Positions 19,608 through 64,000 of a stretch of DNA of 64,000 nt are shown one piece after another. Positions within the stretch are counted from its first letter, which is position 1. The number at the start of each line of letters is the position of its first letter. Origin of the DNA: Liolophura sinensis (lineage: Eukaryota > Mollusca > Polyplacophora > Chitonida > Chitonidae); NCBI RefSeq assembly GCF_032854445.1, contig NC_088295.1, positions 82,196,644 through 82,260,643 on the forward strand. Reading direction: 5' to 3'. The notes under the pieces were generated by a model. It was not told the DNA's origin, did no database searches, and saw nothing but the letters and a program-made list of their open reading frames with translations. Both the position numbers and the translations under genes were made by a program.

Positions 19608-22600
19608 AAGATGGTAACCGGACGCCACCGACGTCTAGTAGGCTCAGTTAGCACAAATAACTGCGACATCGCGTGGTGCCGGTCTTAAGTCATTTCATAC
19701 CCTAACTTCTTATATATCTGTAGGAGGGTGGTACGTGGCATGTATAGGGTTTACAGGCTGGATTCGAGCGCCTGTGGGTAAAGGCTATCCGCTCCCTACA
19801 GTTAGTGCATAGCCTGCTACCTAAAACAAGCAACCACTTAATTCGGGATCCCGGGAACGAAAATCTAGACTCTCTTTTTGTTTGGCTTTATTTTGGATAA
19901 GCCATGGCATTCGCTTGTAGGCATTTCTGGGCCATGTATGTAACTTTAAAATGTCCTGTATTATGTTCTTGTGGTCGCAAGCAATAGATGGGCGTAAATG
20001 GTCTCAAAATTACTGTGAAAGTACAGCGATTGTCTCCTGTGGCCTGTGCTGTACACATTAGAGAAGCCTCAGTGTGTGTTCAGGGTTTGATCTGCCTGTA
20101 ACATCATCTGCCGTAAGGTCGCTCGATAGTAGTGCACTGGATTTCCTTTTTGTTCACAAATTGTACCGGTTTTCTTCCGTGTTAGGCGATTTAAGTGACT
20201 GGAATCGATTTTCCTTTGTCTATTCCCGTCACCAATAAAACACAAAGATGCTGCATCATGAGTCAAGCTTTCTTTCCATACATCAGTAATGCGTTGGCGG
20301 TTTTAGGGACGCCATATTCCGTGTGTTACAGGCCATGCTAACCCTGCTGTATTCCGTATTTTTGTAACGCATAGGTCACTTCCCTTGATGATGGTATAAG
20401 AATTAAATTATCTAATGCTGTCAGAATCTGGAGTTCAATGAACCACAATGATTAACTAAATCACCTGTTTAATTTATTGTGAAATGTATTATTTTGTGAA
20501 TTTGTGCGATTGTCATGATGGTTTTTGCTTCGGCGAGACTCAGAACAGGTTAGCTGATTATGGAGATTATCGGGTTAATATTGATTTACCCTAGGGAAGC
20601 TTTAATGCGCGTGGGAAGATGCGGTAAATGGTCCTTACCGTCGATCCAACACATTAGAGGCAGTTTCTCTCCGAAACTCTCGAAACACTTACTGTGACTC
20701 GATTTAAGAGTACATGTTGTCGTGTCAGAGTTGTGATTGTAGCCGTATGTTGTTAGAGCGCCTTTATTAGTTTCTGCATTTTTATTACAGTTATAAATGA
20801 CTAATACCATGGCGACACTAGACTTTATAAACAAATAACATACCATACAAATACTATCAGTAGAAGGCGGTTGCTTTGTTGTTGTTTACAAACATTTTTT
20901 TATCGTTGTTTTCTATCAATTCCGAATTTTCCTTGAAGCAGCAGGGACAAAAGACAATAATTATAAAAATGCTTACCTACGCAGATGATTCAGTACTAGC
21001 CTCTGTACTCTGTACTGTTGTTGACGCTGTCGTTCCTCTTGATATACTAACACTAAGACCAATAGAAGAAGCACTGGAGGTTCCAACAGAAATCATGGAA
21101 AGAGGTGTTGTGGTAAGAAATCTTTGCGTGAATCCGAGACCTGAAGTTGTCACTGGTGCTGTGGTTGTATTCTGCACAGGTGTTGGCGTAGTTGTTTCTG
21201 TGCTCGTGCTTATACTTGAGCCAGCGTTGGTAGAACTGGGAGCTACACCAGATGTCCTTGTAAGTGACGATTGCGTGGGTCCTAGACCTGAAGTTGTCAC
21301 TGGAGCTGTGGCTGTGTCCGTATTCTGCACGGCCGCTGGCGTGGTTTGTTTCTGTGCTCGTGCTTATAGTGGAGCCAGTGATGGTAGAACTGGGAGCTAC
21401 ACCAGATGTACTTGTAAGTGACGTTTGCGTGGATCCTAGACCTAAAGTTGTCACTGGTGCTATGGTTGTATCTGTATTCTGCCACAGCCGTTGGCGTGGT
21501 CGTTTCTGTGGTCGTGGTATTACTAGGGCCAGTGATGGTAGAACTGGGAGCTACCCCAGATGTACTTGTGGGTGACGTTTGCGTGGATCCTAGACCTAAA
21601 GTTGTCACTGGTGCTATGGCTGTATCTGTATTCTGCGCAGCCGTTGGCGTGGTCGTTTCTGTGGTCGTGGTAATACTAGGGCCAGTGATGGTAGAACTGG
21701 GAGCTACACCGATGTACTTGTGGGTGACGTTTGCGTGGATCCTCGACCCGAAGTTGTCACTGGTGCTGTGGTTGTCTCTGTATTCTGCACAGGTGTTGCC
21801 GTGGTTGTTTTTGTGCTCGTGCTTATACTGGAGCCAGTGATGGCAGAACTGGAGCTACACCAGATGTACTTGCAAGTAACGTTTGCGTGGATCCTACACC
21901 CGAAGTTGTCACTGGTGCTGTGGTTGTATCTGTATTCTGCACAGGTGCTGGCGTGGTTGTTTCTGTGCTCGTGCTTATACTGGAGCCAGTTATGGTAGAA
22001 CTGTGAACTACACCAGGTGTATTTGTAAGTGACGTTTGCGTGGATCCTAGACCTGAAGTTGTCACTGGTGCTATGGTTGTGTCTGTATTCTGCACGGCCG
22101 TTGGCGTTTTTGTTTCTGTGCTCGTGCTTATACTGGAGCCAGTGATGCTAGAACTGGGAGCTACACCAGATGTACCTGTGGGTGACGTTTGCGTGGATCC
22201 TAGACCCGAAGTTGTCACTGGTGCTGTGGTTGTATCTGTATTCTGCACAGGTGCTGGCGTGGTTGTTTCTGTGCTGGTGCTTATACTGGAGCCAATTATG
22301 GTAGAACTGGGAGCTACACCAGATGTACTTGTAAGTAAAATTTGCGTGGATCCTGCACCCGAAGTTGTCACTGGTGCTGTGGTTGTGTCTGTATTCTGCA
22401 CGGCCGTTGGCGTTTTTGTTTTTGTGCTCGTGCTTATACTGGAGCCAGAGATGCTAGAACTGGGAGCTACACCAGGTGTACTTGTAAGTGACGTTTGCGT
22501 GGATCCTAGACCCGAAGTTGTCATTGGTGCTGTGGTTGTGTCTGTATTCTGCACAGCCGCTGGCGTGGCTGTTTCTGTGCTCGTGCTTATACTGGAGCCA

Positions 22601-25600
22601 GTGATGGTAGAACTGGGAGCTACACCAGGTGTACTTGTAAGTGACGTTTGCGTGGGTCCTAGGCCCGAAGTTGTCACTGGTGCTGTGGTTGTGTCTGTAT
22701 TCTGCACAGATGTTGGCGTGGTTGTTTCTGTGCTCGTGCTTATACTGGAGCCAGTGATGCTAGAACTGGGAGCTACACCAGATGTACTTGTGGGTGATGT
22801 TTGCGTGGATCCTAGACCCAAAGTTGTCACTGGTGCTGTGGTTGTGTCTGTATTCTGCACGGCCGTTGGCGTTTTTGTTTCTGTGCTCGTGCTTATACTG
22901 GAACCAGTGATGCTAGAACTGGGAGCTACACCAGGTGTACTTGTAAGTGACGTTTGCGTGGACCGTAGACCCGAAGTTGTCACTGGTGCTGTGGTTGTGT
23001 CCGTATTCTGCACAGGTGTTGTCGTGGTTGTTTCTGTGCTCGTGCTTACACTTGAGCCAGCGTTGGTAGAACTGGGAGCTACAGCAGAGGTCCTTGTAAG
23101 TGAAATTTGCGTGGATCCTAGACCCGAAGATGTCACTGGTACTGTGGTTGTGTCTGTATACTGCACAGCCGTTGGCGTGGTCGTTTCTGTGGTCGTGCGT
23201 ATACTGGAGCCAGTGATGGTAGAACTGTGATCTACACCAGGTGTATTTGTAAGTGACGTTTGCGTGGATCCTAGACCTGAAGTTGTCACAGGTGCTGTGG
23301 TTGTATCTGTATTCTGCACAGCCGTTGGCGTGTACGTTTCTGTGGTCGTGGTAATACTGGAGCCAGTGATGGTAGAACTGGGAGCTACACCAGATGTACT
23401 TGTGGGTGACGTTTGCGTGGATCCTAGACCCGAAGTTGTCACTGGTGCTGTGGTTGTATCTGTATTCTGCACAGATGTTGGCGTGGTTGTTTTTGTGCCC
23501 GTGCTTATACTGGAGCCAGTGATGCCGAAACTGGGAGCTACACCAGATGTACTTGCAAGTAACCTTTGCGTGGATCCTAGACCCGAAGTTGTCACTGGTG
23601 CTGTGGTCGTGTCTGTATTCTGCACGGCCGTTGGCGTTTTTGTTTCTGTGCTCGTGCTTATACTGGAGCCAGTGATGGTAGAACTGGGAGCTACACCAGA
23701 TGTACTTGTAAGTGACGTTTGCGTGGATCCTAGACCCAAAGTTGTCACTGGTGCTATGGTTGTATCTGTATTCTGCACAGCCGTTGGCGTGGTCGTTTCT
23801 GTGCTCGTGGTAATACTGGAGCCAGTGATGCTAGAACTGGGAGCTACACCAGATGTACTTGCAAGTAACGTTTGCGTGGATCCTAGACTCAAACTTGTCA
23901 CTGGTGCTGTGGTTGTGTCCGTATTCTGCACAGGTGTTGGCGTGGTTGTTTCTGTGCTCGTGCTTACACTTGAGCCAGCGTTGGTAGAACTGGGAGCTAC
24001 ACCAGATGTCCTTGTAAGTGACGTTTCCGTGGATCCTAGACCTGAAGTTGTCACTGGTGCTGTGGTTGTATCTGTATTCTGCACAGCCGTTGGCGTGGTC
24101 GTTTCTGTGGTCGTGGTAACACTGGAGCCAGTAATGGTAGAACTGGGAGCTACACCAGATTTACCTGTGAATGACGTTTGCGTGGATCCTAGGCCCGAAG
24201 TTGTCACTGGTACTGTGGTTGTGTCTGTATTCTGCACAGATGCTGGCGTGGTTGTTTCTGTGCTCGTGCTTATACTGGAGCCAGTTATGGTAGAACTGGG
24301 AGCTACACCAGATGTACTTGTAAGTGAAATTTGCGTGGATCCTAGACCCGAAGTTGTCACTGGTGCTGTGGTTGTGTCTGTATTCTGCACGGCTGTTGGC
24401 GTTTTTGTTTCTGTTCTCGTGCTTATACTGGAGCCAGTGATGCTAAAACTGGGAGCTACACCAGGTGTACTTGTAAGTGACGTTTGCGTGGACCGTAGAC
24501 CCGAAGTTGTCATTGGTGCTGTAGTTGTGTCTGTATTCTGCACAGCCGTTGGCGTGGTTGTTTCTGTGCTCGTGCTTACACTGGAGCCAGTGATGGTAGA
24601 ACTGGGAACTACACCAGGTGTACTTGTAAGTGACGTTTGCGTGGATCCTAGACCCGAAGTTGTCACTGGTGCTGTGGTTGTGTCTGTATTCTGCATAGAT
24701 GTTGGCGTGGTCGTTTCTGTGCTCGTGCTTATACTGGAGCCAGTGATGTTAGAAATGGGAGCTACACCAGATGTACTTGTAAGTGAAATTTGCGTGGATC
24801 CTAGACCCGAAGTTGTCACTGGTGCTGTGGTTGTATCTGTATTCTGCACAGCCGATGGTGTGTACGTTTCTATGGTCGTGGTAACACTGGTGCCAGTGAT
24901 GGAAGAACTGGGAGCTACACCAGATGTACCTGTGGGTGACGTTTGCGTGGATCCTAGACCTGAAGTTGTCACTGGTGCTGTGGTTGTATCTGTATTCTGC
25001 ACAGGTGCTGGCGTGGTTGTTTCTGTGCTGGTGCTTATACTGGAGCCAGTGATGGTAGAACTGGGAGCTACACCAGGTGTACTTGTAAGTAACGTTTCCG
25101 TGGATCCTACACCCGAAGTTGTCACTGGTGCTGTGGTTGTATCTGTATTCTGCACAGATGTTGGCGTGGTTGTTTCTGTGCTCGTGTTTATACTGGAGCC
25201 AGTGATGGTAGAACTGGGAGCTACACCAGATGTACTTGTGGCTGACGTTTGCGTGGATCCTAAACCTGATGTTGTTTTTTCTGTTTCTATGCTGACAGTC
25301 GGGCTACTGGTGCTTGCAGTGGAAGTTACAGCAGACGTCCTTGTAAAAGGAAAGGAGCTTGCCGTACTTAGACCGGACGTTGCAGATGTAGTTTCCGTCG
25401 TTGTGCTAATACTAGGGCCAGTCGATGTCGCACTTAAAGTTACAGAAATACTTGTAGAAGGCAATGCTTGTGTAGATGGTACAGTTGAAGTTGTTGTACT
25501 CTGCACTGAATATGGTGTTGTAGTTTTAGCTGTTGTAGATCCGGTTGCTGTATTAGCTTCCGTTGTGCTAATGTATGGGCCAGTGGTAGTAGCACTCGGA

Positions 25601-28600
25601 GTTAAAGCAAAAGTACTTGCAGAAGGCAATGCTTGTGTAGAAGGTACAGTTGAAATTGTTGTACTCTGCACTGATGATGGTGTTGTAGTTCTAACTGTTG
25701 TAGTTTCAGCTGTTGTAGTTCCAGTTGTTGTACTTGGTGTCGTTGTGCTAAAACTTGGGCCAGTGTTCGTAACACTGGGAGGTACACCAGAAATACTTGT
25801 AGAAAGGAATGATTGTGTAGATGCTGCACTTGAAGCTGTGCTCAGCACTAACGTTGGCGTTGTTGTTTCTGTTGCTGTGCTCAAAGTTGGGCTACTGGAG
25901 CTTGCAGTGGAAGTTACAGCAGACGTACTTGCAAAAGGTGATGAGATTGCCGTACTTAGAAAAGACGTTGCAGATGTAGTTCTTCCCGTAGTGCTGCTAC
26001 TACGGCCAGGCGATGTCGCACTTGAAGTTACACCAGAAGGACTTGTAGAAGGCAATGCTTGTGTAGATGGTACAGTTGAAGTTGTTGTACTCTGCACTGA
26101 TGATGGTGTTGTAGTTCCAGCTCTTGTAGTTCCACTTGTTGTACTTGGTGTCGTTGTGCTAATACTTGGGCCAGTGTTGTTAGCACTGAGACGTACACCA
26201 GAAGTACTTTTAGAAAGGAATGATTGTGTAGATGCTACACTTAAAGTTGTGCTCGGTACTGACGTTGGCATTTTTGTTTCTGTCCCTGTGCTTACAGTTG
26301 GGCTACTGGTGCTTGCACTTGGAGTTATAGACGTACTTGTAAAAGGTGATGAAGTTGTCGCATTTAGACCAGTCTTCGCTGATGTAGTTCCTGTCCTTGT
26401 GGTGATACTAGGACCAGTGGTAGTAGTTCTTAAAGTTACACCAGAAGGACTTGTAGCAAGCAATGCTTGTGTAGATGGTACAGATGAAATTGTTGTACTC
26501 TGCACTGATGATGGTGTTGTAGTTCCAGCTGTTGTAGTTCCAGATGTTGTACTTGGTGTCGTTGTGCTAATACTTGGGCCAGTGTTGGTAGCACTGGGAG
26601 GTACACCAGAAGTACTTGTAGAAAGGAATGATTGTGTAGATGCTACACTTAAAGTTGTGCTGGGCACTGACGTTGGCGTTGTTGTTTCTGTTGCTGTGCT
26701 TACAGTTGGGCTACTGGTGCTTGTACTTGGAGTTACAGACGTACTTGTAAAAGGTAATGAAGTTGTCGTACTTAGACCAGTCGTCCCAGATGTAGTTCCT
26801 GTCGTTGTGCTGATACTAGGGCCAGTGGTAGTAGCACTTGAAGTTACACCAGAAGAACTTGTAGAAGGGAATGCTTTTGTAGATGGTACAGTTGAAGTTG
26901 TCGTACTCTGCACTGATGATGGTGTTGTAGTTCCAGCTGTTGTAGTTCCACTTGTTGTACTTGGTGTCGTTGTGCTAATACTTGGGCCAGTGTTGGTAAC
27001 ACTGGGAGGTACACCAGAAGTGCTTGTAGATAGGAATGATTGTGTAGGTGCTACACTTGAAGTTGTGCTCGGCACTGACGTTGGCGTTTTTGTTTCTGAT
27101 GCTGTCCTTACAGTTGGGCTACTGGTGCTTGTACTTGGAGTTACAGACGTACTTGAAAAAGGTGATGAAGTTGTCGTACTTAGACTAGTCGTCGCAGATG
27201 TAGTTCCTGTCGTTGTGCTGATACTAGGGCCAGTGGTAGTAGCACTTGAAGTTACACCAGAAGAACTTGTAGAAGGCAATGCTTGTGTAGATGGTACAGT
27301 TGAAGTTGTCGTACTCTGCACTGATAATGGTGTTGTAGTTTCAGCTGTTGTAGTTCCACTTGTTGTACTTGGTGTCGTTGTGCTAATACTTGGACCAGCG
27401 TTGGTAGCACTGGGAGGTACACCAGAAATACTTGTAGAAAGGAATAATTGTGTAGATGCTACACTTGAAGTTGTGCTGGGCACTGACGTTGGCGTTGTTG
27501 TTTCTGTTGCTATGCTGACAGTTGGGCTACTGGAGCTTGCAGTGGAAGTTACAGCAGACGTACTTGTAAAAGGTGAGGAGATTGCCGTACTTAGAAAAGA
27601 CGTTGCAGATGTAGTTCTTCCCGTAGTGCTGCTACTACGGCCAGGCGATGTCGCACTTGAAGTTACACCAGAAGGACTTGTAGAAGGCAATGCTTGTGTA
27701 GATGGTACAGTTGAAGTGTTTGTACTCTGCACTGATGATGGTGTTGTAGTTCCAGCTGTTGTATTTCCAGTTGTTGTACTTGGTGTCGTTGTGCTAATAC
27801 TTGGGCCAGCGTTGGTAGCACTGGAAGGTACACCAGAAGTACTTGTAGAAAAAAATGATTGTGTAGATGCTACACTAGAAGTTGTGCTCGGTACTGACGT
27901 TGGCGTTGTTGTTTCTGTCCCTGTGCTTACAGTTGGGCTACTGGTGCTTGCACTTGGAGTTACAGACGTACTTGTGAAAGGTGATGAAGTTCTCGTACTT
28001 AGACCAGTCGTCGCAGATGTAGTTCCTGTCGTTGTGCTGATACTAGGACCAGTGGTAGTAGCACTTGAAGTTAAACCAAAAGGACTTGTAGAAGGCAATG
28101 CTTGTGTAGATGGTACAGTTGAAGTTGTAGTACTCTGCACTGATGATGGTGTTGTAGTTCCAGCTGTTGTAGTTCCACTTGTTGTACTTGGTGTCGTTGT
28201 GCTAATACTTGGTCCAGTGGTGGTAGCACTGGGGGGTACACCAGAAGTACTTGTAGAAAGGAATGATTGTGTAGATGCTACACTTGAAATTGTGCTGGGC
28301 ACTGACGTTGGCGTTTTTGTTTCTGTCCCTGTGCTTACAGTTGGGCTACTGGTGCTTGCACTTGGAGTGACAGACGTACTTGTGAAAGATGATGAAGTTG
28401 TCGTACTTAGACCAGACGTTGCAGATGTAGTTCCTGTCGTTGTGCTGATACTTGGGCCAGTGGTAGTAGCACCTAAACTTACATCAGAAAAACTTGTAGA
28501 AGGCAATGCTTGTGTAGATGGTACAGTTAAAGTTGTCGTACTCTGCACTGATGATGGTGTTGTAGTTCCAGCTGTTGTAGTTCCACTTGCTGTACTTGGT

Positions 28601-55600: not shown

Positions 55601-58600
55601 GACGTTGGCGTTGTTGTTTCTGTCCCTGTGCTTACAGTTGGGCTACCGGTGCTTGCACTGGGAGTTACAGACGTACTTGTGAAAGGTGATAGAGTTGTCG
55701 CACTTAGACCAGTCGTCGCAGATGTAGTTCCTGTCGTTGTGCTGATACTAGGACCAGTGGTAGTAGTACTTAAAGTTACACCAGAAGGACTTGTAGAAGG
55801 CAATGCTTGTGTAGATGGTACAGTTGAAGTTGTCGTACTCTGCACTGATGATGGTGTTGTAGTTCCAGCTGTTGTAGTTCCAATTGTTGTACTTGGTGTC
55901 GTTGTGCTAATACTTGGGCCAGTGTTGGTAGCACTGGGAGGTACACCAGAAGTACTTGTAGAAAGGAATGATTCTGTAGATGCTACACTTGAAGTTGTGC
56001 TCGGCACAGACGTTGGCGTTGTTGTTTCTGTCCCTGTGCTTACAGTCGGACTACTGGTGCTTGCAATGGAAATTACAGCAGACGTACTTGTAAAAGGTGA
56101 TAAAGTTGTCGCACTTAGACCAGACGTTGCAGATGTAGTTCCTGCAGTTGTGCTGATACTAGGGTCAGTCGATGTCGCACGTGAAGTTACAACAGAAGGA
56201 CTTGTAGACGGCAATGCTTGTGTAGATGGTACAGTTGAAGTTGTCGTACTCTGCACTGATAATGGTGTTGTAGTTCCAGCTGTTGTAGTTCCAATTGTTG
56301 TACTTGGACCAGTGTTGGTAGCACTGGGAGGTACACCAGAAGTACTTGTAGAAAGGAATGATTGTGTAGATGCTACACTTGAAGTTGTGCTCGGTACTAA
56401 CGTTGGCGTTGTTGTTTCTGTTGCTGTGCTTACAGTTGGGCTACTGGTGCTTGCACTTGGAGATACAGACGTACTTGTGAAAGGTGATGAGCTTGCCGTA
56501 CTGAGACCAGTCGTCGCAGATGTAGTTCCTGTCGTTGTGCTGATACTAGGGCCAGTGTTGGTAGCACTTGAAGTTACACCAGAAGTACTTGTAGAAAGGA
56601 ATGATTGTGTGGGTGCTACACTTGAAGTTGTGCTCGGCACTGACGTTGGCGTTGTTGTTTCTGTCCCTGTGCTTACAGTCGGACTACTGGTGCTTGCACT
56701 TGGAGTTACAGACGTACTTGTGAAAGGTGATGAAGTTGTCGTACTAAGAGAAGGAGTCACAGATGTAGTTCCTGTCGTTGTGGTAATACTAGGGTCAGTG
56801 GTAGTGGCATTTGAAGTCACAGGAAAAGTACTTGTAGAAGGCAATGCCTGTGTAGATGGTACAGTTGAAGTTGTCGTACTCTGCACTGATGATAGTGTTG
56901 TAGTTTCAGCTGTTGTAGTTCCAGTTGTTGTACTTGGTGTCGTTGTGCTCATACTTGGGCCAGTGTTGGTAACACTGGGCGGTACACCAGAAGTACTTGT
57001 AGAAAGGAATGATTGTGTAGATGCTACACTTGAGGTTGTGCTCGGCACAGACGTTGGCGTTGTTGTTTCTGTCCCTGTGCTTACAGTTGGGCTACTGGTG
57101 CTTGCACTTGGAGTTACAGACGTACTTGTGAAAGGTGATGAAGTTGTCGTACTCAGACCAGACGTTGCAGATGTAGTTCCTATCGTTGTGCTGATACTAG
57201 GACCAGTGGTAGTAGCACTTGAAGTTACACCAGCAGGACTTGTAGAAGGCAATGCTTGTGTAGATGGTACAGATGAAGTTGTTGTACTCTGCACTGATGA
57301 TAGTGTTGTAGTTCCACTTGTTGTACTTGGTGTCGTTGTGCTAATACTTGGGCCAGTGTTGGTAGCACTGGGAGGTACACCAGAAGTACTTGTAGAAAGG
57401 AATGATTCTGTAGAGGCTACACTTGAAGTTGTGCTCGGCACTGACGTTAGCGTTGTTGTTTCTGTTGCTATGCTGACAGTTGGGCTACTGGTGCTTGCAG
57501 TGGAAAGTACAGCAGACGTACTTGTAAAAGATGATGAAGTTGTCCTACTTAGACCAGACGTTGCAGATGTAGTTCCTGCAGTTGTGCTGATACTAGGGTC
57601 AGTCGATGTCGCACTTGAAGTTACACCAGAAGGACTTGTAGAAGGCAATGCTTGTGTAGATGGTACAGTTGAAGTTGTCGTACTCTGCACTGATGATGGT
57701 GTTGTAGTTCCAGCTGTTGTAGTTCCAATTGTTGTACTTGGTGTCGTTGTGCTTACACTTGGGCCAGTGTTGGTAGCACTGGAAGGTACACCAGAAGTAC
57801 TTGTAGAAAGGAATGATTGTGTGGATACTACACTTGAAGTTGTGCTCGGCACTGACGTTGGCGTTGTTGTTTCTATCCCTGTGCTTACAGTTGGGCTACT
57901 GGTGCTTGCACTTGGAGTGACAGACGTACTTGTAAAAGGTGATAAAGTTGTCGCACTTAGACCAGTCGTCGCAGATGTAATTTTTGTCGTTGTGCTGATA
58001 CTAGGACCAGTGGTAGTAGCACTTGAAGTTACACCAGAAGGACTTGTAAAAGGCAATGCTTGTGTAGATGGTACAGTTGAAGTTGTCGTACTCTGCACCG
58101 ATGATGGTGTTGTAGTTCCAGCTGTTGTAGTTCCAATTGTTGTACTTGGTGTCGTTGTGCTAATACTTGGGCCAGTGTTGGTAGCACTGGGAGGTACACC
58201 AGAAGTACTTGTAGAAAGGAATGATTCTGTAGATTCTACACTTGAAGTTGTGCTCGGCACTGACGTTAGCGTTGTTGTTTCTGTTGCTATGCTGACAGTT
58301 GGGCTACTGGTGTTTGCAGTGGAAAGTACAGCAGACGTAGTTGTAAAAGATGATGAAGTTGTCCTACTTAGACCAGACGTTGCAGATGTAGTTCCTGCAG
58401 TTGTGCTGATACTAGAGTCAGTCGATGTCGCACTTGAAGTTACACCAGAAGGACTTGTAGAAGGCAATGCTTGTGTAGATGGTACAGTTGAAGTTGTCGT
58501 ACTCTGCACTGATGATGGTGTTGTAGTTCCAGCTGTTGTAGTTCCACTTGTTGCACTTGGTGTCGTTGTGCTAATACTTGGGCCAGTGTTGGTAACACTG

Positions 58601-61600
58601 GGAGGTACACCAGAGATACTTGTAGAAAGAAATGATTGTGTGGATGCTACACTTGAAGTTGTGCTCGGCACTGACGTTGGCGTTGCTGTTTCTGTCCCTG
58701 TGCTTACAGTTGGGCTACTGGTGCTTGCACTGGGCGTTACAGACGTACTTGTGAAAGGTGATAAAGTTGTCGCACTTAGACCAGTCGTCGCAGATGTAGT
58801 TCTTGTCGTTGTGCTGATACTAGGACCAGTGGTAGTAGCACTTAAAGTTACACCAGAAGGACTTGTAGAAGGCAATGCTTGTGTAGATGGTACAGTTGAA
58901 GTTGTCGTACTCTGCACTGATGATGGTGTTGTAGTTCCAGCTGTTGTAGTTCCAATTGTTGTACTTGGTGTCGTTGTGCTAATACTTGGGCCAGTGTTGG
59001 TAGCACTGGGAGGTACACCAGAAGTACTTGTAGAAAGGAATGATTCTGTAGATGCTACACTTGAAGTTGTGCTCGGCACTGACGATAGCGTTGTTGTTTC
59101 TGTTGCTATGCGGACAGTTGGGCTACTGGTGCTTGCAGTGGAAAGTACAGCAGACGCACTTGTAAAAGATGATGAAGTTGTCCTACTTAGACCAGACGTT
59201 GCAGATGTAGTTCCTGCAGTTGTGCTGATACTAGGGTCAGTCGATGTCGCACTTGAAGTTACACCAGAAGGACTTGTAGAAGGCAATGCTTGTGTAGATG
59301 GTACAGTTGAAGTTGTCGTACTCTGCACTGATGATGGTGTTGTAGTTCCAGCTGTTGTAGTTCCAATTGTTGTACTTGGTGTCGCTGTGCTTACACTTGG
59401 GCCAGTGTTGGTAGCACTGGAAGGTACACCAGAAGTACCTGTAGAAAGGAATGATTGTGTGGATACTACACTTGAAGTTGTGCTCGGCACTGACGTTGGC
59501 GTTTTTGTTTCTATCCCTGTGCTTACAGTTGGGCTACTGGTGCTTGCACTTGGAGTTACAGACGTACTTGTAAAAGGTGATAAAGTTGTCGCACTTAGAC
59601 CAGTCGTCGCAGATGTAGTTCCTGTCGTTGTGCTGATACTAGGCCCAGTGGTAGTAGTACTTAAAGTTACACCAGAAGGACTTGTAGAAGGCAATGCTTG
59701 TGTAGATGGTACAGTTGAAGTTGTCGTACTCTGCACTGATGATGGTGTTGTAGTTCCAGCTGTTGTAGTTCCAATTGTTGTACTTGGTGTCGTTGTGCTT
59801 ACACTTGGGCCAGTGTTGGTAGCACTGGAAGGTACACCAGAAGTACTTGTAGAAAGGAATGATTGTGTGGATACTACACTTGAAATTGTGCTCGGCACTG
59901 ACGTTGGCGTTGTTGTTTCTATCCCTGTGCTTACAGTTGGGCTACTGGTGCTAGCACTTGGAGTTACAGACGTACTTGTAAAAGGTGATAAAGTGGTCGC
60001 ACTTAGACCAGTCGTCGCAGATGTAGTTCCTGTCGTTGTGGTGATACTAGGACCAGTGGTAGTAGTACTTAAAGTTACACCAGAAGGACTTGTAGAAGGC
60101 AATGCTTGTGTAGATGGTACAGTTGAAGTTGTCGTACTCTGCACTGACAATGGTGTTGTAGTTCCAGCTGTTGTAGTTCCAATTGTTGTACTTGGGCCAG
60201 TGTTGGTAGCACTGGGAGGTACACCAGAAGTACTTGTAGAAAGGAATGATTGTGTAGATGCTACACTTGAAGTTGTGCTCGGTACTAACGTTGGCGTTGT
60301 TGTTTCTGTTGCTGTGCTTACAGTTGGGCTACTGGTGCTTGCACTTGGAGATACAGACGTACTTGTGAAAGGTGATGAGCTTGCCGTACTGAGACCAGTC
60401 GTAGCAGATGCAGTTCCTGTCGTTGTGCTGATACTAGGGCCAGTGTTGGTAGCACTTGAAGTTACACCAGAAGTACTTGTAGAAAGGAATGATTGTGTGG
60501 GTGCTACACTTGATGTTGTGCTCGGCACTGACGTTGGCGTTGTTGTTTCTGTCCCTGTGCTTACAGTCGGGCTACTGGTGCTTGCACTTGGAGTTACAGA
60601 CGTACTTGTGAAAGGTGATGAAGTTGTCGTACTAAGAGAAGGAGTCACAGATGTAGTTCCTGTCGTTGTGGTAATACTAGGGTCAGTGGTAGTGGCACTT
60701 GAAGTCACAGGAAAGGTACTTGTAGAAAGCAATGCTTGGGTAGATGGTACAGTTGAAGTTGTTGTACTCTGCACTGATGATGGTGTTGTAGTTTCAGCTG
60801 TTGTAGTTACATTTGTTGTACTTGGTGTCGTTGTTCTACCACTTGGGCCAGTGTTGGTAACACTGGGAGGTACACCAGAAGAGCTTGTAGATAGGAATGA
60901 TTGAGTAGGTGCTACACTTGAAGTTGTGCTCGGCACTGACGTTCGCGTTGTTGTTTCTGTTGCTGTGCTTACAGTTGGTCTACTGGTGGTTGCACTTGTA
61001 GTTACAGACGTACTTGTAAAAGATGATGAAGTTGTCCTACTTAGACCAGACGTTGCAGATGTAGTTCCTGCAGTTGTGCTGATATTAGGGTCAGTCGATG
61101 TCGCACTTGAAGTTACACCAGAAGAACTTGTAGAAGGCAATGCTTGTGTAGATGGTACAGTTGAAGTTGTCGTACTCTGCACTGATGATGGTGTTGTAGT
61201 TCCAGCTGTTGTAGTTCCAATTGTTGTACTTGGTGTCGTTGTGCTTACACTTGGGCCAGTGTTGGTAGCACTGGAAGGTACACCAGAAGTACTTGTAGAA
61301 AGGAATGATTGTGTGGATACTACACTTGAAGTTGTGCTCGGCACTGACGTTGGCGTTGTTGTTTCTATCCCTGTGCTTACAGTTGGGCTACTGGTGCTTG
61401 CACTTGGAGTTACAGACGTACTTGTAAAAGGTGATAAAGTTGTCGCACTTAGACCAGTCGTCGCAGATGTAGTTCTTGTCGTTGTGCTGATACTAGGACC
61501 AGTGGTAGTAGCACTTAAAGTTACACCAGAAGGACTTGTAGAAGGCAATGCTTGTGTAGATGGTACAGTTAAAGTTGTCGTACTCTGCACTGATGATGGT

Positions 61601-64000
61601 GTTGTAGTTCCAGCTGTTGTACTTCCAATTGTTGTACTTGGTGTCGTTGTGCTAATACTTGGGCCAGTGTTGGTAGCACTGGAAGGTACACCAGAAGTAC
61701 TTGTAGAAAGGAATGATTCTGTAGATGGTACACTTGAAGTTGTGCTCGGCACTGACGTTAGCGTTGTTGTTTCTGTTGCTATGCTGACAGTTGGGCTACT
61801 GGTGCTTGCAGTGGAAAGTACAGCAGACGCACTTGTAAAAGATGATGAAGTTGTCCTACTTAGACCAGACGTTGCAGATGTAGTTCCTGCAGTTGTGCTG
61901 ATACTAGGGTCAGTCGATGTCGCACTTGAAGTTACACCAGAAGGACTTGTAGAAGGCAATGCTTGTGTAGATGGTACAGTTGAAGTTGTCGTACTCTGCA
62001 CTGATGATGGTGTTGTAGTTCCAGCTGTTGTAGTTCCAATTCTTGTACTTGGTGTCGCTGTGCTTACACTTGGGCCAGTGTTGGTAGCACTGGAAGGTAC
62101 ACCAGAAGTAATTGTAGAAAGGAATGATTGTGTGGATACTACACTTGAAGTTGTGCTCGGCACTGACGTTGGCGTTGTTGTTTCTATCCCTGTGCTTACA
62201 GTTGGGCTACTGGTGCTTGCACTTGGAGTTACAGACGTACTTGTAAAAGATGATAAAGTTGTCGCACTTAGACCAGTCGTCGCAGATGTAGTTCCTGTCG
62301 TTGTGCTGATACTAGGACCAGTGGTAGTAGTACTTAAAGTTACACCAGAAGGACTTGTAGAAGGCAATGCTTGTGTAGATGGTACAGTTGAAGTTGTCGT
62401 ACTCTGCACTGATGATGGTGTTGTAGTTCCAGCTGTTGTAGTTCCAATTGTTGTACTTGGTGTCGTTGTGCTTACACTTGGGCCAGTGTTGGTAGCACTG
62501 GAAGGTACACCAGAAGTACTTGTAGAAAGGAATGATTGTGTGGATACTACACTTGAAATTGTGCTCGGCACTGACGTTGGCGTTGTTGTTTCTATCCCTG
62601 TGCTTACAGTTGGGCTACTGGTGCTTGCACTTGGAGTTACAGACGTACTTGTAAAAGGTGATAAAGTTGTCGCACTTAGACCAGTCGTCGCAGATGTAGT
62701 TCCTGTCGTTTTGGTGATACTAGGACCAGTGGTAGTAGTACTTAAAGTTACACCAGAAGGACTTGTAGAAGGCAATGCTTGTGTAGATGGTACAGTTGAA
62801 GTTGTCGTACTCTGCACTGATGATGGTGTTGTAGTTCCAGCTGTTGTAGTTCCAATTGTTGTACTTGGTGTCGTTGTGCTTACACTTGGGCCAGTGTTGG
62901 TAGCACTGGAAGGTACACCAGAAGTACTTGTAGAAAGGAATGATTGTGTGGATACTACACTTGAAGTTGTGCTCGGCACTGACGTTGGCGTTGTTGTTTC
63001 TATCCCTGTTCTTTCAGTTGGGCTACTGGTGCTTGCACTTGGAGTTACAGACGTACTTGTAAAAGGTGATAAAGTTGTCGCACTTAGACCAGTCGTCGCA
63101 GATGTAGTTCTTGTCGTTGTGCTGATACTAGGACCAGTGGTAGTAGCACTTGAAGTTACACCAGAAGGACTTGTAAAAGGCAATGCTTGTGTAGATGGTA
63201 CAGTTGAAGTTGTCGTACTCTGCACCGATGATGGTGTTGTAGTTCCAGCTGTTGTAGTTCGAATTGTTGTACTTGGTGTCGTTGTGCTAATACTTTGGCC
63301 AGTGTTGGTAGCACTGGGAGGTACAACAGAAGTACTTGTAGAAAGGAATGATTCTGTAGATTCTACACTTGAAGTTGTGCTCGGCACTGACGTTGGCGTT
63401 GTTGTTTCTGTTGCTATGCTGACAGTTGGGCTACTGGTGCTTGCGGTGGAAAGTACAGTAGACGTAGTTGTAAAAGATGATGAAGTTGTCCTACTTAGAC
63501 CAGTCGTCGCAGATGTAGTTCCTGCAGTTGTGCTGATACTAGGGTCAGTCGATGTCGCACTTGAAGTTACACCAGAAGGACTTGTAGAAGGCAATGCTTG
63601 TGTAGATGGTACAGTTGAAGTTGTCGTACTCTGCACTGATGATGGTGTTGTAGTTCCAGCTGTTGTAGTTCCACTTGTTGCACTTGGTGTCGTTGTGCTA
63701 ATACTTGGGCCAGTGTTGGTAACACTGGGAGGTACACCAGAGATACTTGTAGAAAGAAATGATTGTGTGGATGCTACACTTGAAGTTGTGCTCGGCACTG
63801 ACGTTGGCGTTGTTGTTTCTGTCCCTGTGCTTACAGTTGGGCTACCGGTGCTTGCACTTGGAGTTACAGACGTACTTGTGAAAGGTGATAGAGTTGTCGC
63901 ACTTAGACCAGTCGTCGCAGATGTAGTTCCTGTCGTTGTGCTGATACTAGGACCAGTGGTAGTAGTACTTAAAGTTACACCTGAAGGACTTGTAGAAGGC
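1764..64000 (-). CDS. Giant MUC4-like mucin gene (partial at both ends)
   Basis: This is a single multi-exon gene read right to left. The order of domains is a Ser/Thr/Pro repeat domain, NIDO, AMOP, VWD-like, EGF domains, then SEA-like and EGF modules. NIDO-AMOP-VWD-EGF after a mucin repeat domain is the known layout of vertebrate MUC4 and of MUC4-like proteins of invertebrates. Such proteins are secreted or membrane-tethered glycoproteins that form or anchor a mucous or extracellular coat; that role is inferred from the family. I found about 27 exons by GT/AG borders, open frame and domain match. Most borders are phase 1, which is typical of extracellular modules. The 5' end, promoter and signal peptide lie beyond the right edge, and the 3' end lies beyond the left edge. 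Several exons between 15.8 and 21.9 kb carry frame breaks, so a decayed copy is possible, though local sequence error is as likely. Confidence 0.85.
2064..2200 (+). repeat. Dispersed SINE-like element, copy A
   Basis: A (TTTA)n run is followed by 'ggtgttttacgcc', 'actcaagaacatttcac', 'atatgacgg' and 'cagcattatggtgggag'. The same core occurs at 14201-14413 in opposite orientation and at 19330-19490. In the reverse sense the (AAAT)n would be a 3' tail, as in a retroposed short element. Confidence 0.6.
2430..2488 (-). CDS. SEA-like module 3, exon b
   Basis: The exon reads [20 protein letters not shown]. It is exactly 59 bases, phase 0 to phase 2, the best SEA match of the three b exons. Confidence 0.8.
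2554..2620. repeat. (AT)n microsatellite
   Basis: About 67 bases of pure AT dinucleotide lie in the intron between exons a and b of SEA-like module 3. It produces spurious Tyr-Ile open frames on both strands. Confidence 0.95.
2682..2767 (-). CDS. SEA-like module 3, exon a
   Basis: The exon reads [16 protein letters not shown], then [12 protein letters not shown]. It is 86 bases, phase 1 to phase 0, with donor TTC|GTGAGT. Confidence 0.75.
3057..3118 (-). CDS. EGF-like module between SEA 2 and 3, exon 2
   Basis: The exon reads [19 protein letters not shown]. It shares G-D-Y-C-Q with the exon at 5516-5565. It is 62 bases, phase 2 to phase 1, with donor ACA|GTAAGT. Confidence 0.75.
3119..3678. 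other. Intron with small direct repeats
   Basis: This is the intron between the two exons of an EGF-like module. At 3522-3576 'aattatggatt' plus a short GT-rich spacer is repeated three times. The phrase 'atatggttctaaagtc' occurs near 3500 and again near 3608. No coding signal is seen. Confidence 0.6.
3679..3787 (-). CDS. EGF-like module between SEA 2 and 3, exon 1
   Basis: The exon reads [20 protein letters not shown], then [15 protein letters not shown] chose the acceptor CGTTTAG because it gives the correct phase and the P-L-L start shared with the exon at 5740-5848. An AG twelve bases downstream would break the frame. It is 109 bases, phase 1 to phase 2. Confidence 0.75.
4078..4277 (-). 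CDS. SEA-like module 2, exon c
   Basis: The exon reads [20 protein letters not shown], then [15 protein letters not shown], then [17 protein letters not shown]. It is 200 bases, phase 2 to phase 1. This copy keeps a G-S pair at the site where SEA domains self-cleave, but not the full G-S-V-V-V motif. Confidence 0.75.
4479..4537 (-). CDS. SEA-like module 2, exon b
   Basis: The exon reads [20 protein letters not shown]. It is exactly 59 bases, phase 0 to phase 2. The LPYYR-x-VE stretch is shared with module 3. Confidence 0.75.
4839..4973. repeat. 22-bp intronic minisatellite, ~6 copies
   Basis: Six diverged copies of a 22-base unit of the form 'tcaaactgtttgttgacatgg' lie in the intron between 4537 and 5113. 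No coding signal is seen in the rest of that intron. Confidence 0.7.
5113..5192 (-). CDS. SEA-like module 2, exon a
   Basis: The exon reads [20 protein letters not shown], then NQAILSF. It is 80 bases, phase 1 to phase 0, and paralogous to the exons at 6771-6859 and 2682-2767. Confidence 0.65.
5193..5515. other. Intron, nothing seen
   Basis: This intron lies between an EGF-like exon and SEA-like module 2. No repeat or coding signal is seen. Confidence 0.6.
5516..5565 (-). CDS. EGF-like module between SEA 1 and 2, exon 2
   Basis: The exon reads [16 protein letters not shown] and supplies the last Cys residues of the EGF-like domain begun in the previous exon. It is 50 bases, phase 2 to phase 1. 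Confidence 0.7.
5740..5848 (-). CDS. EGF-like module between SEA 1 and 2, exon 1
   Basis: The exon reads [20 protein letters not shown], then [12 protein letters not shown]. It is 109 bases, phase 1 to phase 2. It matches the exon at 3679-3787 in length, phase and the P-L-L...C...C...C-Y...G-Y-P-x-C-R pattern. Confidence 0.75.
5849..6166. other. Intron, nothing seen
   Basis: This intron lies between SEA-like module 1 and the next EGF-like exon. No repeat or coding signal is seen. Confidence 0.6.
6167..6363 (-). CDS. SEA-like module 1, exon c
   Basis: The exon reads [20 protein letters not shown], then [14 protein letters not shown], then [21 protein letters not shown] takes the place of the G-S-V-V-V self-cleavage site of classic SEA domains, so cleavage is doubtful. 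An N-G-T sequon is conserved in position in all three modules. It is 197 bases, phase 2 to phase 1. Confidence 0.7.
6602..6660 (-). CDS. SEA-like module 1, exon b
   Basis: The exon reads [19 protein letters not shown], the 'I..L......Y..V.I..I' step of a SEA fold. It is exactly 59 bases, phase 0 to phase 2, like the two paralogous exons. Confidence 0.7.
6771..6859 (-). CDS. SEA-like module 1, exon a
   Basis: The exon reads [19 protein letters not shown], then [10 protein letters not shown]. It resembles the first strand and helix of SEA domains ('F.L.L.....D..S..Y..L'). It is 89 bases, phase 1 to phase 0. The matching exons of modules 2 and 3 are 5113-5192 and 2682-2767. Confidence 0.7.
6860..7244. 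other. Intron before SEA-like module 1, nothing seen
   Basis: No repeat or clear exon is seen. If the phase conflict at 7245-7420 is real, a missing micro-exon is more likely between 7279 and 7399 than here. Confidence 0.5.
7245..7278 (-). CDS. Short exon leading into SEA-like module 1
   Basis: Thirty-four bases read [12 protein letters not shown] when entered in phase 0. The phase-1 exit joins perfectly to the next exon ([12 protein letters not shown]). The donor AAATG|GTAATG is acceptable and the acceptor GTTTCAG is good. The upstream phase is unresolved. Confidence 0.45.
7400..7420 (-). CDS. Possible 21-base micro-exon
   Basis: Twenty-one bases lie between a good acceptor (TTTCATTTCAG) and a donor (ACAG|GTGAGA). 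It enters in phase 1, as the previous exon requires, and leaves in phase 1. It codes for roughly A-I-Q-K-Q-P-T. It does not fit the phase-0 entry of the next exon, so either it or that exon is misplaced, or another micro-exon exists. Confidence 0.3.
7581..7829 (-). CDS. Double EGF exon
   Basis: The exon holds two EGF-like domains. The first runs [17 protein letters not shown] to [13 protein letters not shown]; the second runs [18 protein letters not shown] to [12 protein letters not shown]. The second has the calcium-binding D-V-D-E-C start. It is 249 bases, phase 1 to phase 1, with acceptor CCACAG and donor CCAG|GTAAAG. Confidence 0.9.
8063..8194 (-). CDS. Calcium-binding EGF domain exon
   Basis: The exon reads [19 protein letters not shown], then [14 protein letters not shown] and NCYG. 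This is a clear calcium-binding EGF consensus. It is 132 bases, phase 1 to phase 1. Confidence 0.9.
8254..8275. repeat. (CA)n microsatellite
   Basis: This is a short CA dinucleotide run in an intron between two EGF exons. Confidence 0.85.
8496..8615 (-). CDS. EGF-like domain exon
   Basis: The exon reads [15 protein letters not shown], then [18 protein letters not shown] and LTC. Six Cys are in EGF spacing, without the calcium-binding D-x-N-E-C start. It is 120 bases, phase 1 to phase 1. Confidence 0.85.
8871..8999 (-). CDS. Calcium-binding EGF domain exon
   Basis: The exon reads [20 protein letters not shown], then [12 protein letters not shown] and YTC. This has I-N-E-C and the Asp/Asn-x-x-G-S-Y-x-C-x-C consensus. 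It is 129 bases, phase 1 to phase 1, with donor GTTG|GTAAGT. Confidence 0.9.
9000..9437. other. Intron, nothing seen
   Basis: This intron lies between two calcium-binding EGF exons. No repeat or coding signal is seen. Confidence 0.6.
9438..9563 (-). CDS. Calcium-binding EGF domain exon
   Basis: The exon reads [20 protein letters not shown], then [14 protein letters not shown] and KSC. The D-V-N-E-C start and the C-x-N-T...Y-x-C-x-C consensus mark a calcium-binding EGF domain. It is 126 bases, phase 1 to phase 1. Confidence 0.9.
9814..9978 (-). CDS. EGF-like domain exon
   Basis: The exon starts [16 protein letters not shown] and ends [18 protein letters not shown], giving six or more Cys in EGF-like spacing. 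It is 165 bases, phase 1 to phase 1, and follows on directly from the previous C-x-x-G-W-T-G. Confidence 0.8.
9979..10375. other. Intron, nothing seen
   Basis: This intron lies between EGF-like exons. No repeat or coding signal is seen. Confidence 0.6.
10376..10545 (-). CDS. End of post-VWD segment plus first EGF-like domain
   Basis: The exon reads [20 protein letters not shown], then [10 protein letters not shown], then [10 protein letters not shown]. The F-x-A-x-D...G-x-S-A segment completes the preceding domain, and the C-G-C-x-x-H-G-x-C...C-x-C-x-x-G-W part is an EGF-like domain. It is 170 bases, phase 2 to phase 1. Confidence 0.85.
10550..10870. repeat. ~115-bp intronic tandem repeat, ~3 copies
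   Basis: Three diverged copies contain 'cgacaattcaaaatggttgt', then 'tgaccgtctcaatgtcag', then a TA-rich 'gtacatataagtgaga' part. The first copy overlaps the branch and acceptor region of the exon at 10376-10545. Confidence 0.6.
10999..11212 (-). CDS. Ig-like/cadherin-like 'PVI' segment after VWD
   Basis: The exon reads [20 protein letters not shown], then [12 protein letters not shown] and [13 protein letters not shown]. 'N.PPVI', 'DPDG' and 'WTPTS' are hallmarks of the segment that follows VWD in MUC4-like proteins. The donor is CG|GTACAT. The join to the next exon gives [13 protein letters not shown] without a break, which fixes the border; reading through the donor gives stops soon after. 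Confidence 0.8.
11213..13177. other. Largest C-terminal intron (~2 kb)
   Basis: No exon that I trust is seen here. It holds an inverted repeat at about 11594-11700 and a Cys-containing open stretch at about 12045-12170 described among the findings. The exons on both sides join in phase, so nothing needs to lie here. Confidence 0.6.
13178..13426 (-). CDS. Post-VWD domain exon
   Basis: The exon reads [12 protein letters not shown], then [12 protein letters not shown], then [20 protein letters not shown]. The 'C..N..C.YD' motif is what follows VWD in MUC4 and related proteins. It is 249 bases, phase 1 to phase 1, with donor TAG|GTAAGT. Confidence 0.85.
13454..13619. repeat. ~57-bp AT-rich tandem repeat, 3 copies
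   Basis: Three diverged copies end in 'acacgataaaacag', 'acacgatgaaacacag' and 'aaatgatgaaacag', just before the (AT)n run at 13620. They are intronic. Confidence 0.5.
13620..13654. repeat. (AT)n microsatellite
   Basis: This is a short AT dinucleotide run in the intron between 13426 and 13793. Confidence 0.9.
13793..13987 (-). CDS. VWD-like domain, exon 3
   Basis: The exon reads [20 protein letters not shown], then [18 protein letters not shown]. The 'T.GL.GN.NG.P.DD' motif is the characteristic end of VWD domains. The exon ends LYHLLKE and joins in phase 1 to W-Q-V-N, matching the 'F...W.V' step after VWD in MUC4. Confidence 0.85.
14201..14413 (-). repeat. Dispersed SINE-like element, copy B (longest)
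   Basis: Copy B lies in the intron between 13987 and 14429 and is the most complete of the three. Reading on the minus strand it has (TTTA)n, 'tcttttacgccgtactcaag', 'atatgacggcagccagcatt', 'gggaggaaaccgggcaaagc' and 'ccacgaccatccgcaggtt', and ends near 'gcattcgtgagaggctgag'. Confidence 0.65.
14429..14551 (-). CDS. VWD-like domain, exon 2
   Basis: The exon reads [15 protein letters not shown], then [10 protein letters not shown] and ALFESG. It is 123 bases, phase 1 to phase 1, with acceptor CACTAG and donor CAG|GTGAG. It continues the VWD fold ('L.V.VNG..') and is intact. From here to the left the gene shows no frame breaks. Confidence 0.7.
14552..15772. other. Intron within the VWD-like domain
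   Basis: No exon is seen. A 45-base tandem duplication lies at 15392-15482, with 'ttcatgtgcagccactggtc' and 'ttcatgtgcagccatttgtc' as its core. The intron separates the frame-broken exon to the right from the intact exons to the left. Confidence 0.5.
15773..15994 (-). CDS. VWD-like domain, exon 1 (frame-broken)
   Basis: The exon reads [20 protein letters not shown] and, after a frame change near 15895, [20 protein letters not shown], then FTAFA. A further change near 15826 gives [11 protein letters not shown]. '[11 protein letters not shown]' and 'F.LQ....' match the start of the MUC4 VWD domain. The usual GDPH motif ahead of 'TFDG' is not present. Confidence 0.65.
16107..16325 (-). CDS. AMOP tail / AMOP-VWD linker (frame-broken)
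   Basis: The exon begins [17 protein letters not shown] and, after frame changes near 16270 and 16220, reads DPSGQAS and then [19 protein letters not shown], followed by [13 protein letters not shown]. The CC-x-x-x-x-x-C...Y-R-P...C...Y-x-P-P pattern is the conserved link between AMOP and VWD in MUC4-like proteins. Confidence 0.65.
16400..16442 (-). CDS. Short exon after AMOP
   Basis: This is a 43-base open segment between an acceptor (TACACAG) and a donor (GATAG|GTAATA). In phase 0 it reads [10 protein letters not shown]... and follows the phase-0 end of the AMOP exon. Its own end phase does not match the next exon, as expected in a stretch with indels, so its exact borders are uncertain. 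Confidence 0.4.
16639..16871 (-). CDS. AMOP domain exon (frame-broken)
   Basis: After the NIDO end ([19 protein letters not shown]), the exon reads [20 protein letters not shown] and then [16 protein letters not shown]. The C-x-x-W, then C-P-C and Q-A-x-x-D-P pattern is diagnostic for AMOP, an adhesion-associated domain of MUC4 and SUSD2. One frame change is needed at the eight-base T run at 16806-16813 (A8 on the coding strand), which is a typical homopolymer length error. Confidence 0.75.
17163..17373 (-). CDS. NIDO domain, exon 3 (frame-broken)
   Basis: The first part reads [20 protein letters not shown] and then [10 protein letters not shown], matching the 'FQ.VL..DG..TFVIF.Y' region of NIDO. 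The frame must change near 17235 to read [18 protein letters not shown], and again near 17180 to reach [12 protein letters not shown], which crosses into the next exon. That last motif is the usual end of NIDO (NTG..G.W.FR). Confidence 0.7.
17479..17824 (-). CDS. NIDO domain, exon 2 (frame-broken)
   Basis: The exon starts [10 protein letters not shown]...GYFPDPFP, matching the 'NG.ISF' strand of NIDO. It then runs through segments I can follow only by changing frame: a [15 protein letters not shown]-like segment, a [18 protein letters not shown]-like segment, then GLVVTWDSV and [11 protein letters not shown]. The changes fall near 17750, 17668 and 17518. Each segment matches NIDO order, including the conserved 'APFW.D.D' and 'VTW' motifs. 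The exon is therefore real by descent, but it is not translatable as given. Confidence 0.7.
17825..18200. other. Intron, nothing seen
   Basis: This AT-rich intron lies between the first two NIDO exons. No repeat or coding signal is seen. Confidence 0.6.
18201..18328 (-). CDS. NIDO domain, exon 1
   Basis: The exon opens with the NIDO signature FGVNAGDTQ and continues through a GDEAF...LNP stretch to EDYDYAE. This corresponds to the start of nidogen extracellular domains (F-G-x-x-x-G-D-x). The acceptor is TTTGCAG and the donor GAG|GTGAGT. It is 128 bases, entering in phase 1 and leaving in phase 0, with no frame break. Confidence 0.8.
19330..19490 (+). repeat. Dispersed SINE-like element, copy C
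   Basis: A (TTTA)n run is followed by a diverged core: 'gacgtactcatgtatatttc', 'cgaccagcattatggtggaa', 'gggcagagcctgggagaaac'. It lies between the repeat exon and the NIDO exons. Confidence 0.6.
19533..19601. repeat. (AT)n microsatellite
   Basis: This is an AT dinucleotide run with two small interruptions, in the intron upstream of the NIDO exons. Confidence 0.9.
20639..20773 (-). CDS. Possible small exon between repeat domain and NIDO
   Basis: This is a tentative exon of 135 bases. It has a good donor (GACG|GTAAGG) and an AG acceptor with a poor pyrimidine tract. The open frame contains three Cys and ends in CWIDG. Its end phase (1) fits the phase needed by the first NIDO exon, and its start phase fits the weak phase-1 donor at 20997. 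I recognise no domain and there is no other support, so it may be chance. Confidence 0.2.
20977..64000 (-). CDS. Mucin Ser/Thr/Pro repeat exon, over 43 kb
   Basis: One exon codes for the mucin domain. The frame is open without a stop from the right edge to about 21851, then is broken by four single-base indels that cancel out, and regains the same frame down to a TAG at 20977-20979. In a representative 136-residue unit I count 48 Thr, 38 Ser and 14 Pro, so about 63% Ser plus Thr, which is typical of a densely O-glycosylated domain. Trp is absent and charged residues are few. I found only two Cys codons in the long frame. The strong donor AG|GTAAGC begins at 20976, directly after the in-frame TAG. 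A weaker donor, A|GTACTG, would end the exon at 20997 in phase 1 and avoid the stop. The exon has no visible acceptor in the window, so its full length is unknown. Confidence 0.9.
21130..25270 (-). repeat. Tandem array of 153-bp coding repeats (~27 units)
   Basis: This second repeat type lies at the C-terminal end of the mucin domain. The unit is 51 residues, with markers [20 protein letters not shown] and [20 protein letters not shown]. It resembles the half-units of the 408-bp repeat (a VPST...[13 protein letters not shown]...GPSIST pattern), so the two families probably share an ancestor. The units at 21350-21851 contain four single-base indels compared with their neighbours. Confidence 0.88.
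25270..64000 (-). repeat. Tandem array of ~408-bp coding repeats (~95 units)
   Basis: The unit is about 408 bp, or 136 residues. Its markers on the protein strand include [30 protein letters not shown] and [15 protein letters not shown]. The unit is itself compound: the VQST...STQAL...GPSIST part and the VPST...STQSFL...GPSIST part are diverged versions of one roughly 50-residue sequence. About 95 units fit the span by length. Units differ by point changes and by in-frame losses of sub-blocks. Several larger blocks of many units are duplicated almost exactly, with spacings of 2643, 4491 and 5748 bp, all multiples of three. Units near 25-27 kb look more diverged than those between 42 and 64 kb. 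Confidence 0.9.

Follow-up and report, generated by a model that had tools for sequence, protein, structure and literature searches.

The giant exon and its borders

The window, that is, the whole stretch of 64,000 nucleotides that was analysed, covers C1:82196644-82260643 (contig NC_088295.1) in the 609-Mb genome of the chiton Liolophura sinensis; window-extended coordinates continue its numbering past 64000. On the minus strand lies a predicted giant PTS exon, of which 43,024 bp (20977..64000) fall within the window. The minus-strand ORF at 63999..21823 comprises 14,058 stop-free codons. Its first stop, at 21825-21823, comes after a one-base loss at about 21852. Three more changes of one base each, at about 21712, 21478, and 21348, restore the original frame of the exon, which is regained over 21363-20977 as judged from the ORF list and the frame path. 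A TAG at 20979-20977 closes this frame as its final codon, and a GTAAGC donor follows immediately after it (donor 20976).

An earlier note on this DNA had described an uninterrupted mucin exon of at least 43 kb, of which the minus-strand frame runs from the window edge to about 21851 and then, via four indels, to 20977. Both parts of this frame are found in the sequence. The note had also regarded the frame as still open at the right edge and had suggested a search for the 5' acceptor beyond the window. The repeat array indeed extends 62.65 kb past the edge, up to a TTTATTTCAG acceptor. At this predicted border, TTTATTTCAG is directly followed by TATCAGAC, and the first exon base is 126654 in window-extended coordinates. 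The predicted giant exon corresponds to C1:82217620-82323297 on the minus strand, that is, 105,678 bp or about 35,200 codons, and contains no N. The 43-kb observation is an underestimate of the exon size, for which 105.7 kb is now predicted.

About 68% of the encoded residues are Thr, Ser, or Pro; over 34,877 codons, T accounts for 33.4%, S for 25.1%, P for 9.1%, and C for 0.01%, and W does not occur. A 24-mer of the array was found 118 times in the genome, on a single strand, and all 100 listed occurrences fall in this array. At its 3' edge the array consists of 153-bp (51-codon) repeats (21123..25275; TRF), with a consensus akin to the units of 408 and 1035 bp. These are followed by 408-bp (136-codon) repeats from 25399 to 64000 and on to about 81 kb (repeat analysis including TRF), by 1035-bp units from about 81 to about 104 kb, and by 153-bp-based units from about 104 to 126.6 kb (repeat analysis; window-extended coordinates), all on the minus strand.

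Domains of the surrounding gene and the neighbouring paralogue

On the same strand, the giant exon is followed in the 3' direction by NIDO, AMOP, VWD, C8-3_MUC4, and EGF stretches, in this order. The exon after the giant exon (18201..18328), N-terminal to NIDO, has a phase-1 acceptor as judged from its open frame, and its splice sites were assigned by eye. Two NIDO exons lie at 17824-17479 and 17373-17163, with a Pfam NIDO match of 29.7 bits (cut-off 25) in 17373-17227. Three AMOP exons lie at 16872-16639, 16481-16400, and 16325-16107, and AMOP scored 18.7 bits over one exon (cut-off 25). The first VWD exon (15773..15994) was recognized by its homology to the VWD exon of the neighbouring paralogue described below and has no Pfam match of its own, and the second VWD part (13779..14045) scored 21.4 bits (cut-off 22.9). 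The C8-3_MUC4 exon (13170..13454) scored 20.9 bits (cut-off 25). EGF-like exons lie at 7567..9579, where five ORFs, from 9579-9379 to 7866-7567, were tested and four of them gave an EGF_CA match above the cut-off, with up to 41.6 bits. One of four candidates for a membrane anchor, based on hydropathy, is a hydrophobic segment at C1:82187107 that carries a basic tail.

In the 5' direction, a signal-peptide-like candidate exon 1 (133022-132986, window-extended) is one of three candidates chosen by hydropathy and splice phase. Exon 2 (128380-128216) would contain a short PTS stretch, where 25-residue windows reach at least 56% S/T/P. The phase-1 chain from exon 1 through exon 2 to the giant exon reads MKCVVSLTALLIVAIYNGVNVSG...SGVSDTTTT, in frame into the array. 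Two Pfam scans of ten proteins each gave, for the ORFs, a sole match, to New_glue, which was below the cut-off and lay in exon 2.

Judging from these domains, we file the gene as a predicted MUC4-type mucin. That is, the PTS exon, NIDO, and EGF are present, and the AMOP, VWD, and C8-3 matches are below the Pfam cut-offs but align to the paralogue, which itself scored 19.6 bits for AMOP, 22.6 for C8-3_MUC4, 23.7 and 27.2 for VWD (above the cut-off), and 71.1 for NIDO. In such a gene, exon 1 would supply the signal peptide, exon 2 the short PTS stretch, and exon 3 a repeat domain of 35,000 residues, and the 3' exons would supply NIDO-AMOP-VWD-C8-EGF together with the hydrophobic segment and its basic tail. 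The predicted repeat domain may be densely O-glycosylated and form a stiff bottlebrush that either stays on the cell surface or is shed. Such a bottlebrush would presumably be microns long if fully extended, as estimated from the rise per residue.

Three minus-strand ORFs, at 6374-6054, 4318-4070, and 1968-1708, resemble one another by the pattern GET..T..V.YN.P.TP.EEW and have a SEA-like look, and no Pfam match was obtained for these three. A dispersed repeat that includes a conserved fragment of coding sequence is seen at 19379-19479 and 2117-2182. It is intronic here and is also present in two of the paralogue loci.

The neighbouring paralogue lies on the same strand, with its NIDO at C1:82058769, behind its PTS exon. 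This exon (C1:82155434-82060306) is 95,129 bp long including a 200-N gap, and is in phase 1 at both ends. Its 435-bp (145-codon) unit is unrelated to the units of the window gene, since the alignment scores were 21-25 versus maxima of 29-36 for codon-shuffled controls. No stop was found in any scored coding segment of this exon. Its coding frame switches 45 times: 29 switches lie at 82118300-82126382, within about 4.1 kb of the gap, and further clusters of 10 and 5 switches lie at 82136.0-82136.8 kb and 82150.3-82151.1 kb, respectively. Other paralogues, at 30.37 Mb and 77.11 Mb of C1, have PTS exons in ORFs of 252 and 449 codons, respectively (20 kb examined at each), and at the paralogue on C13 no PTS exon was seen within the 10 kb examined.

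Variation among the repeat units

The earlier note had held that a frame of this length implies selection on the product or very recent expansion. Length alone does not carry this claim. Most units are a multiple of three bases long and poor in stops, and the antisense strand is nearly as open, with ORFs of 4,870 and 7,686 aa; frame length alone is therefore weak evidence, and we rejected it as a proof of selection. There is evidence for both alternatives, namely the missing nonsense variants described here and the large near-identical blocks described in the next section.

In four repeat families, only 110 of 6,296 weighted one-step opportunities yield a stop. The 564 unique one-step variants of these families included no nonsense variant, versus 10.0-10.3 expected. 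In the 408-bp family (106 units), the corresponding values were 0 versus 5.0-5.8. When the same family was read in control frames, two on the sense strand and two on the antisense strand, 16-25 nonsense variants were found, and in the antisense +1 control frame, which is also stop-poor, 2 were observed versus 3.2-3.4 expected. Nonsense variants in the remaining control frames were about as frequent as expected, indicating that the method is able to detect them. The distinct units used were 93 of 108, 15 of 15, 40 of 64, and 15 of 17 in the four families; the counts exclude off-length units, duplicates, and frameshifted stretches and assume independence of the variants, an assumption that gene conversion among units may violate.

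Purifying selection at the amino acid level was not found in the four families. The overall N/S value, computed at a ts/tv weight of 1.6, was 0.97, with 1.12, 0.91, 1.40, and 0.64 in the individual families, and the count for the 408-bp family at a ts/tv weight of 2.0 gave 1.16. Changes from S/T to S/T numbered 55 versus 36.8 expected. Furthermore, unit lengths elsewhere in the array differ by multiples of three bases (136, 137, 132, 129, 135, and 131 codons). Our reading of these results is that selection acts on the frame and the composition, not on the amino acid sequence.

Frameshifts, array length, and known giants

As assembled, the giant exon cannot be translated through, and its first frameshift lies 4.6 kb from the 5' end. 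A Viterbi path over the frames contains 15 frameshifts in four places and, in the frames that it selects, meets no stop. The number 15 is a lower bound, because alignment to sister copies reveals one more closely spaced pair. The places are at about 122.0 kb (1), 94.4-91.9 kb (4), 71.9-69.2 kb (6), and 21.9-21.3 kb (4), and are separated by clean stretches of 47.3, 27.7, and 20.0 kb. According to the same alignment, the frameshifts are one-base changes, many of them in short single-base runs. For the four closest to the exon's 3' end (21348..21852, minus strand), assembly error is favoured.

These four changes are the cancelling indels of the earlier note. They are present in the assembly, but they belong to a wider region rich in indels (about 15.8-21.85 kb), which also affects the NIDO and AMOP exons and the first VWD exon. 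Compared to the intact exons of the neighbour, the five tested exons of the window gene at 17.83-15.79 kb have 11 frameshifts and no stops: four in the NIDO exons, four in two tested AMOP exons, and three in the first VWD exon. One of those in AMOP (16111) is doubtful, because it is at the exon end. No frameshift was found when two exons farther on, at 14.0-13.2 kb, namely the second VWD part and the C8-3_MUC4 exon, were aligned to the paralogue. At the giant-exon end, the TAG at the donor mismatches the phase-1 acceptor of the following exon, unless another unseen indel lies near the exon end.

Most of these frameshifts most likely reflect local assembly error. The stretch with the bad frame crosses exon borders and then ends, which fits a local fault of the assembly, since decay would be expected in the later exons too. 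The frame switches of the neighbour crowd around its 200-N gap, indicating that in this assembly such crowding accompanies unresolved sequence. On the other hand, 14 of the genome's 16 NIDO matches are free of internal stops. The assembly thus seems mostly sound, and decay of the window gene is conceivable. That is, the gene might be a decaying or truncated copy, of which the frame is open only through homogenisation of the repeats while the gene still worked. The 11 frameshifts in five conserved exons that are intact in the neighbour, the 15 in the giant exon, and the in-frame TAG at its end are all in line with such decay. We nevertheless consider it improbable, because the frameshifted exons have no stops and nonsense in the array is 0 versus about 10 expected, the exons at 14.0-13.2 kb are intact, and the seven exons read at 18.3-15.8 kb (chosen by eye) all retain AG and GT. 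Furthermore, the indels are confined to four places, with up to 47 kb free of indels between them, and the neighbour has a like crowding of frameshifts around its sequence gap. Far less probable still is a non-coding satellite with a fortuitous open frame. Stop-poor codons and a period of 3n do leave even the antisense frame open, but nonsense variants are missing, the indels elsewhere are multiples of three, the splice-phase chain and the MUC4-type domains lie on the same strand, and the neighbour has an equal layout.

We therefore think it probable that the giant exon is the central PTS exon of a minus-strand gene that encodes a functional giant mucin, predicted to be membrane-anchored and of the MUC4 type. 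We are less certain of a length near 100 kb than of the coding nature of the exon. Within the array, a 5,379-bp block is perfectly duplicated in tandem (110567-115973 = 115946-121352, window-extended), and exact matches of at least 700 bp occur at twelve offsets. Either recent exchange or false duplication could produce this block, and for this reason the copy number of the array is uncertain. It is possible, though on balance unlikely, that the array is real and coding but was inflated by the assembly, so that the true exon is well under 100 kb. Besides the duplication and the twelve offsets, this is suggested by the assembly of the mitochondrial genome as a tandem concatemer in C99 and by the 200-N gap in the neighbouring paralogue. 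The giant exon has no gap, however, and beyond the 5.4-kb block its longest exact match is 1.7 kb, so that most copies have private variants, which an assembler would have to invent; moreover, two independent arrays are of similar size. C99 itself (108,685 bases) has seven COX1 matches about 15.5 kb apart, and one more is in C632, which suggests an uncurated assembly. The mitochondrial genes appear in the order nad3-nad2-cox1-cox2-atp6, which points to a mollusc of gastropod-like type.

The large near-identical blocks point to a recent expansion of the array. Alignments among the 153-bp (from both ends), 408-bp, and 1035-bp consensus units score 106-1087, far above the codon-shuffled maxima of 30-43, in line with a nested amplification that started from a 51-codon module. 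Growth may have proceeded by nested unequal exchange from this module to the 136-codon and 345-codon units and then to multi-kb blocks, with selection tolerating nearly all residue changes as long as the frame stays open and the composition remains rich in Ser/Thr. In the adjacent paralogue, an unrelated unit would have given rise to another giant exon. Our broader proposal, which we hold to be evenly balanced, is that the two adjacent MUC4-type paralogues independently grew single coding exons of about 100 kb, the longest described in an animal, with proteins near 35,000 residues, and that this gigantism is driven at the level of the locus, be it by chromatin, by recombination, or by selection for longer surface bottlebrushes, with selection on frame and composition only.

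Human MUC4 has a large VNTR exon ahead of NIDO, AMOP, VWD, EGF, and a membrane anchor, a layout that is predicted for the window gene too, and its coding repeats are likewise prone to unequal exchange. GDPH is the cleavage motif in the VWD of MUC4, whereas the VWD of the neighbour begins with GGPHIHTFDG. Human MUC12 is likewise a membrane mucin with a single VNTR exon of extreme length and is not known to have NIDO-AMOP-VWD. Titin and the algal PKZILLA have tens of thousands of residues like the predicted mucin, but they are multi-domain folded chains, and titin is spread over hundreds of exons.

In a 2026 pangenome preprint (PMC13345508), the longest human MUC4 VNTR allele is 27,843 bp, and the longest predicted human MUC12, said to hold the largest human exon, is 23,080 aa. 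On these figures, the predicted repeat exon of the window gene, with its 408-, 1035-, and 153-bp units, is about four times longer than that of MUC4, from which the gene also differs in its extra EGF-rich region, and the predicted protein is about 1.5 times longer than MUC12. The earlier note had stated that the frame rivals the longest known mucin repeat domains; the 43 kb in the window does not exceed this MUC12 allele, but the full 105.7 kb does. The spider aggregate spidroin AgSp1, a secreted glue, is also a very long repetitive protein, but belongs to another family, is intron-split, and is under half as long, with 42,270 bp of coding sequence in two exons (PMC6553539). A search of the open-access literature for giant, longest, or largest exons found none of this size, and one may still be described. 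Within the reach of these sources, the locus holds a known kind of gene at record scale, with an adjacent independent case, and its exon would exceed MUC12, MUC4, and AgSp1.

If the assembly is right, both neighbouring mucins would be among the longest known animal proteins, and the known size of coding exons and animal mucins would rise by about half over the longest human allele in PMC13345508. It could then be asked how splicing defines a 105-kb exon, how ribosomes manage a message of more than 105 kb, and what keeps the frame intact in a protein that is under almost no constraint at individual sites. Two adjacent arrays built from unrelated units permit a test of gigantism as a property of the locus. 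For annotation, the locus is a warning, as gene callers would split this gene at the assembly indels.

In a loose pattern search, other tandem arrays were seen at C1:4654777-4655591 and C1:6782989-6786180, with steps near 50 and 53 bases.
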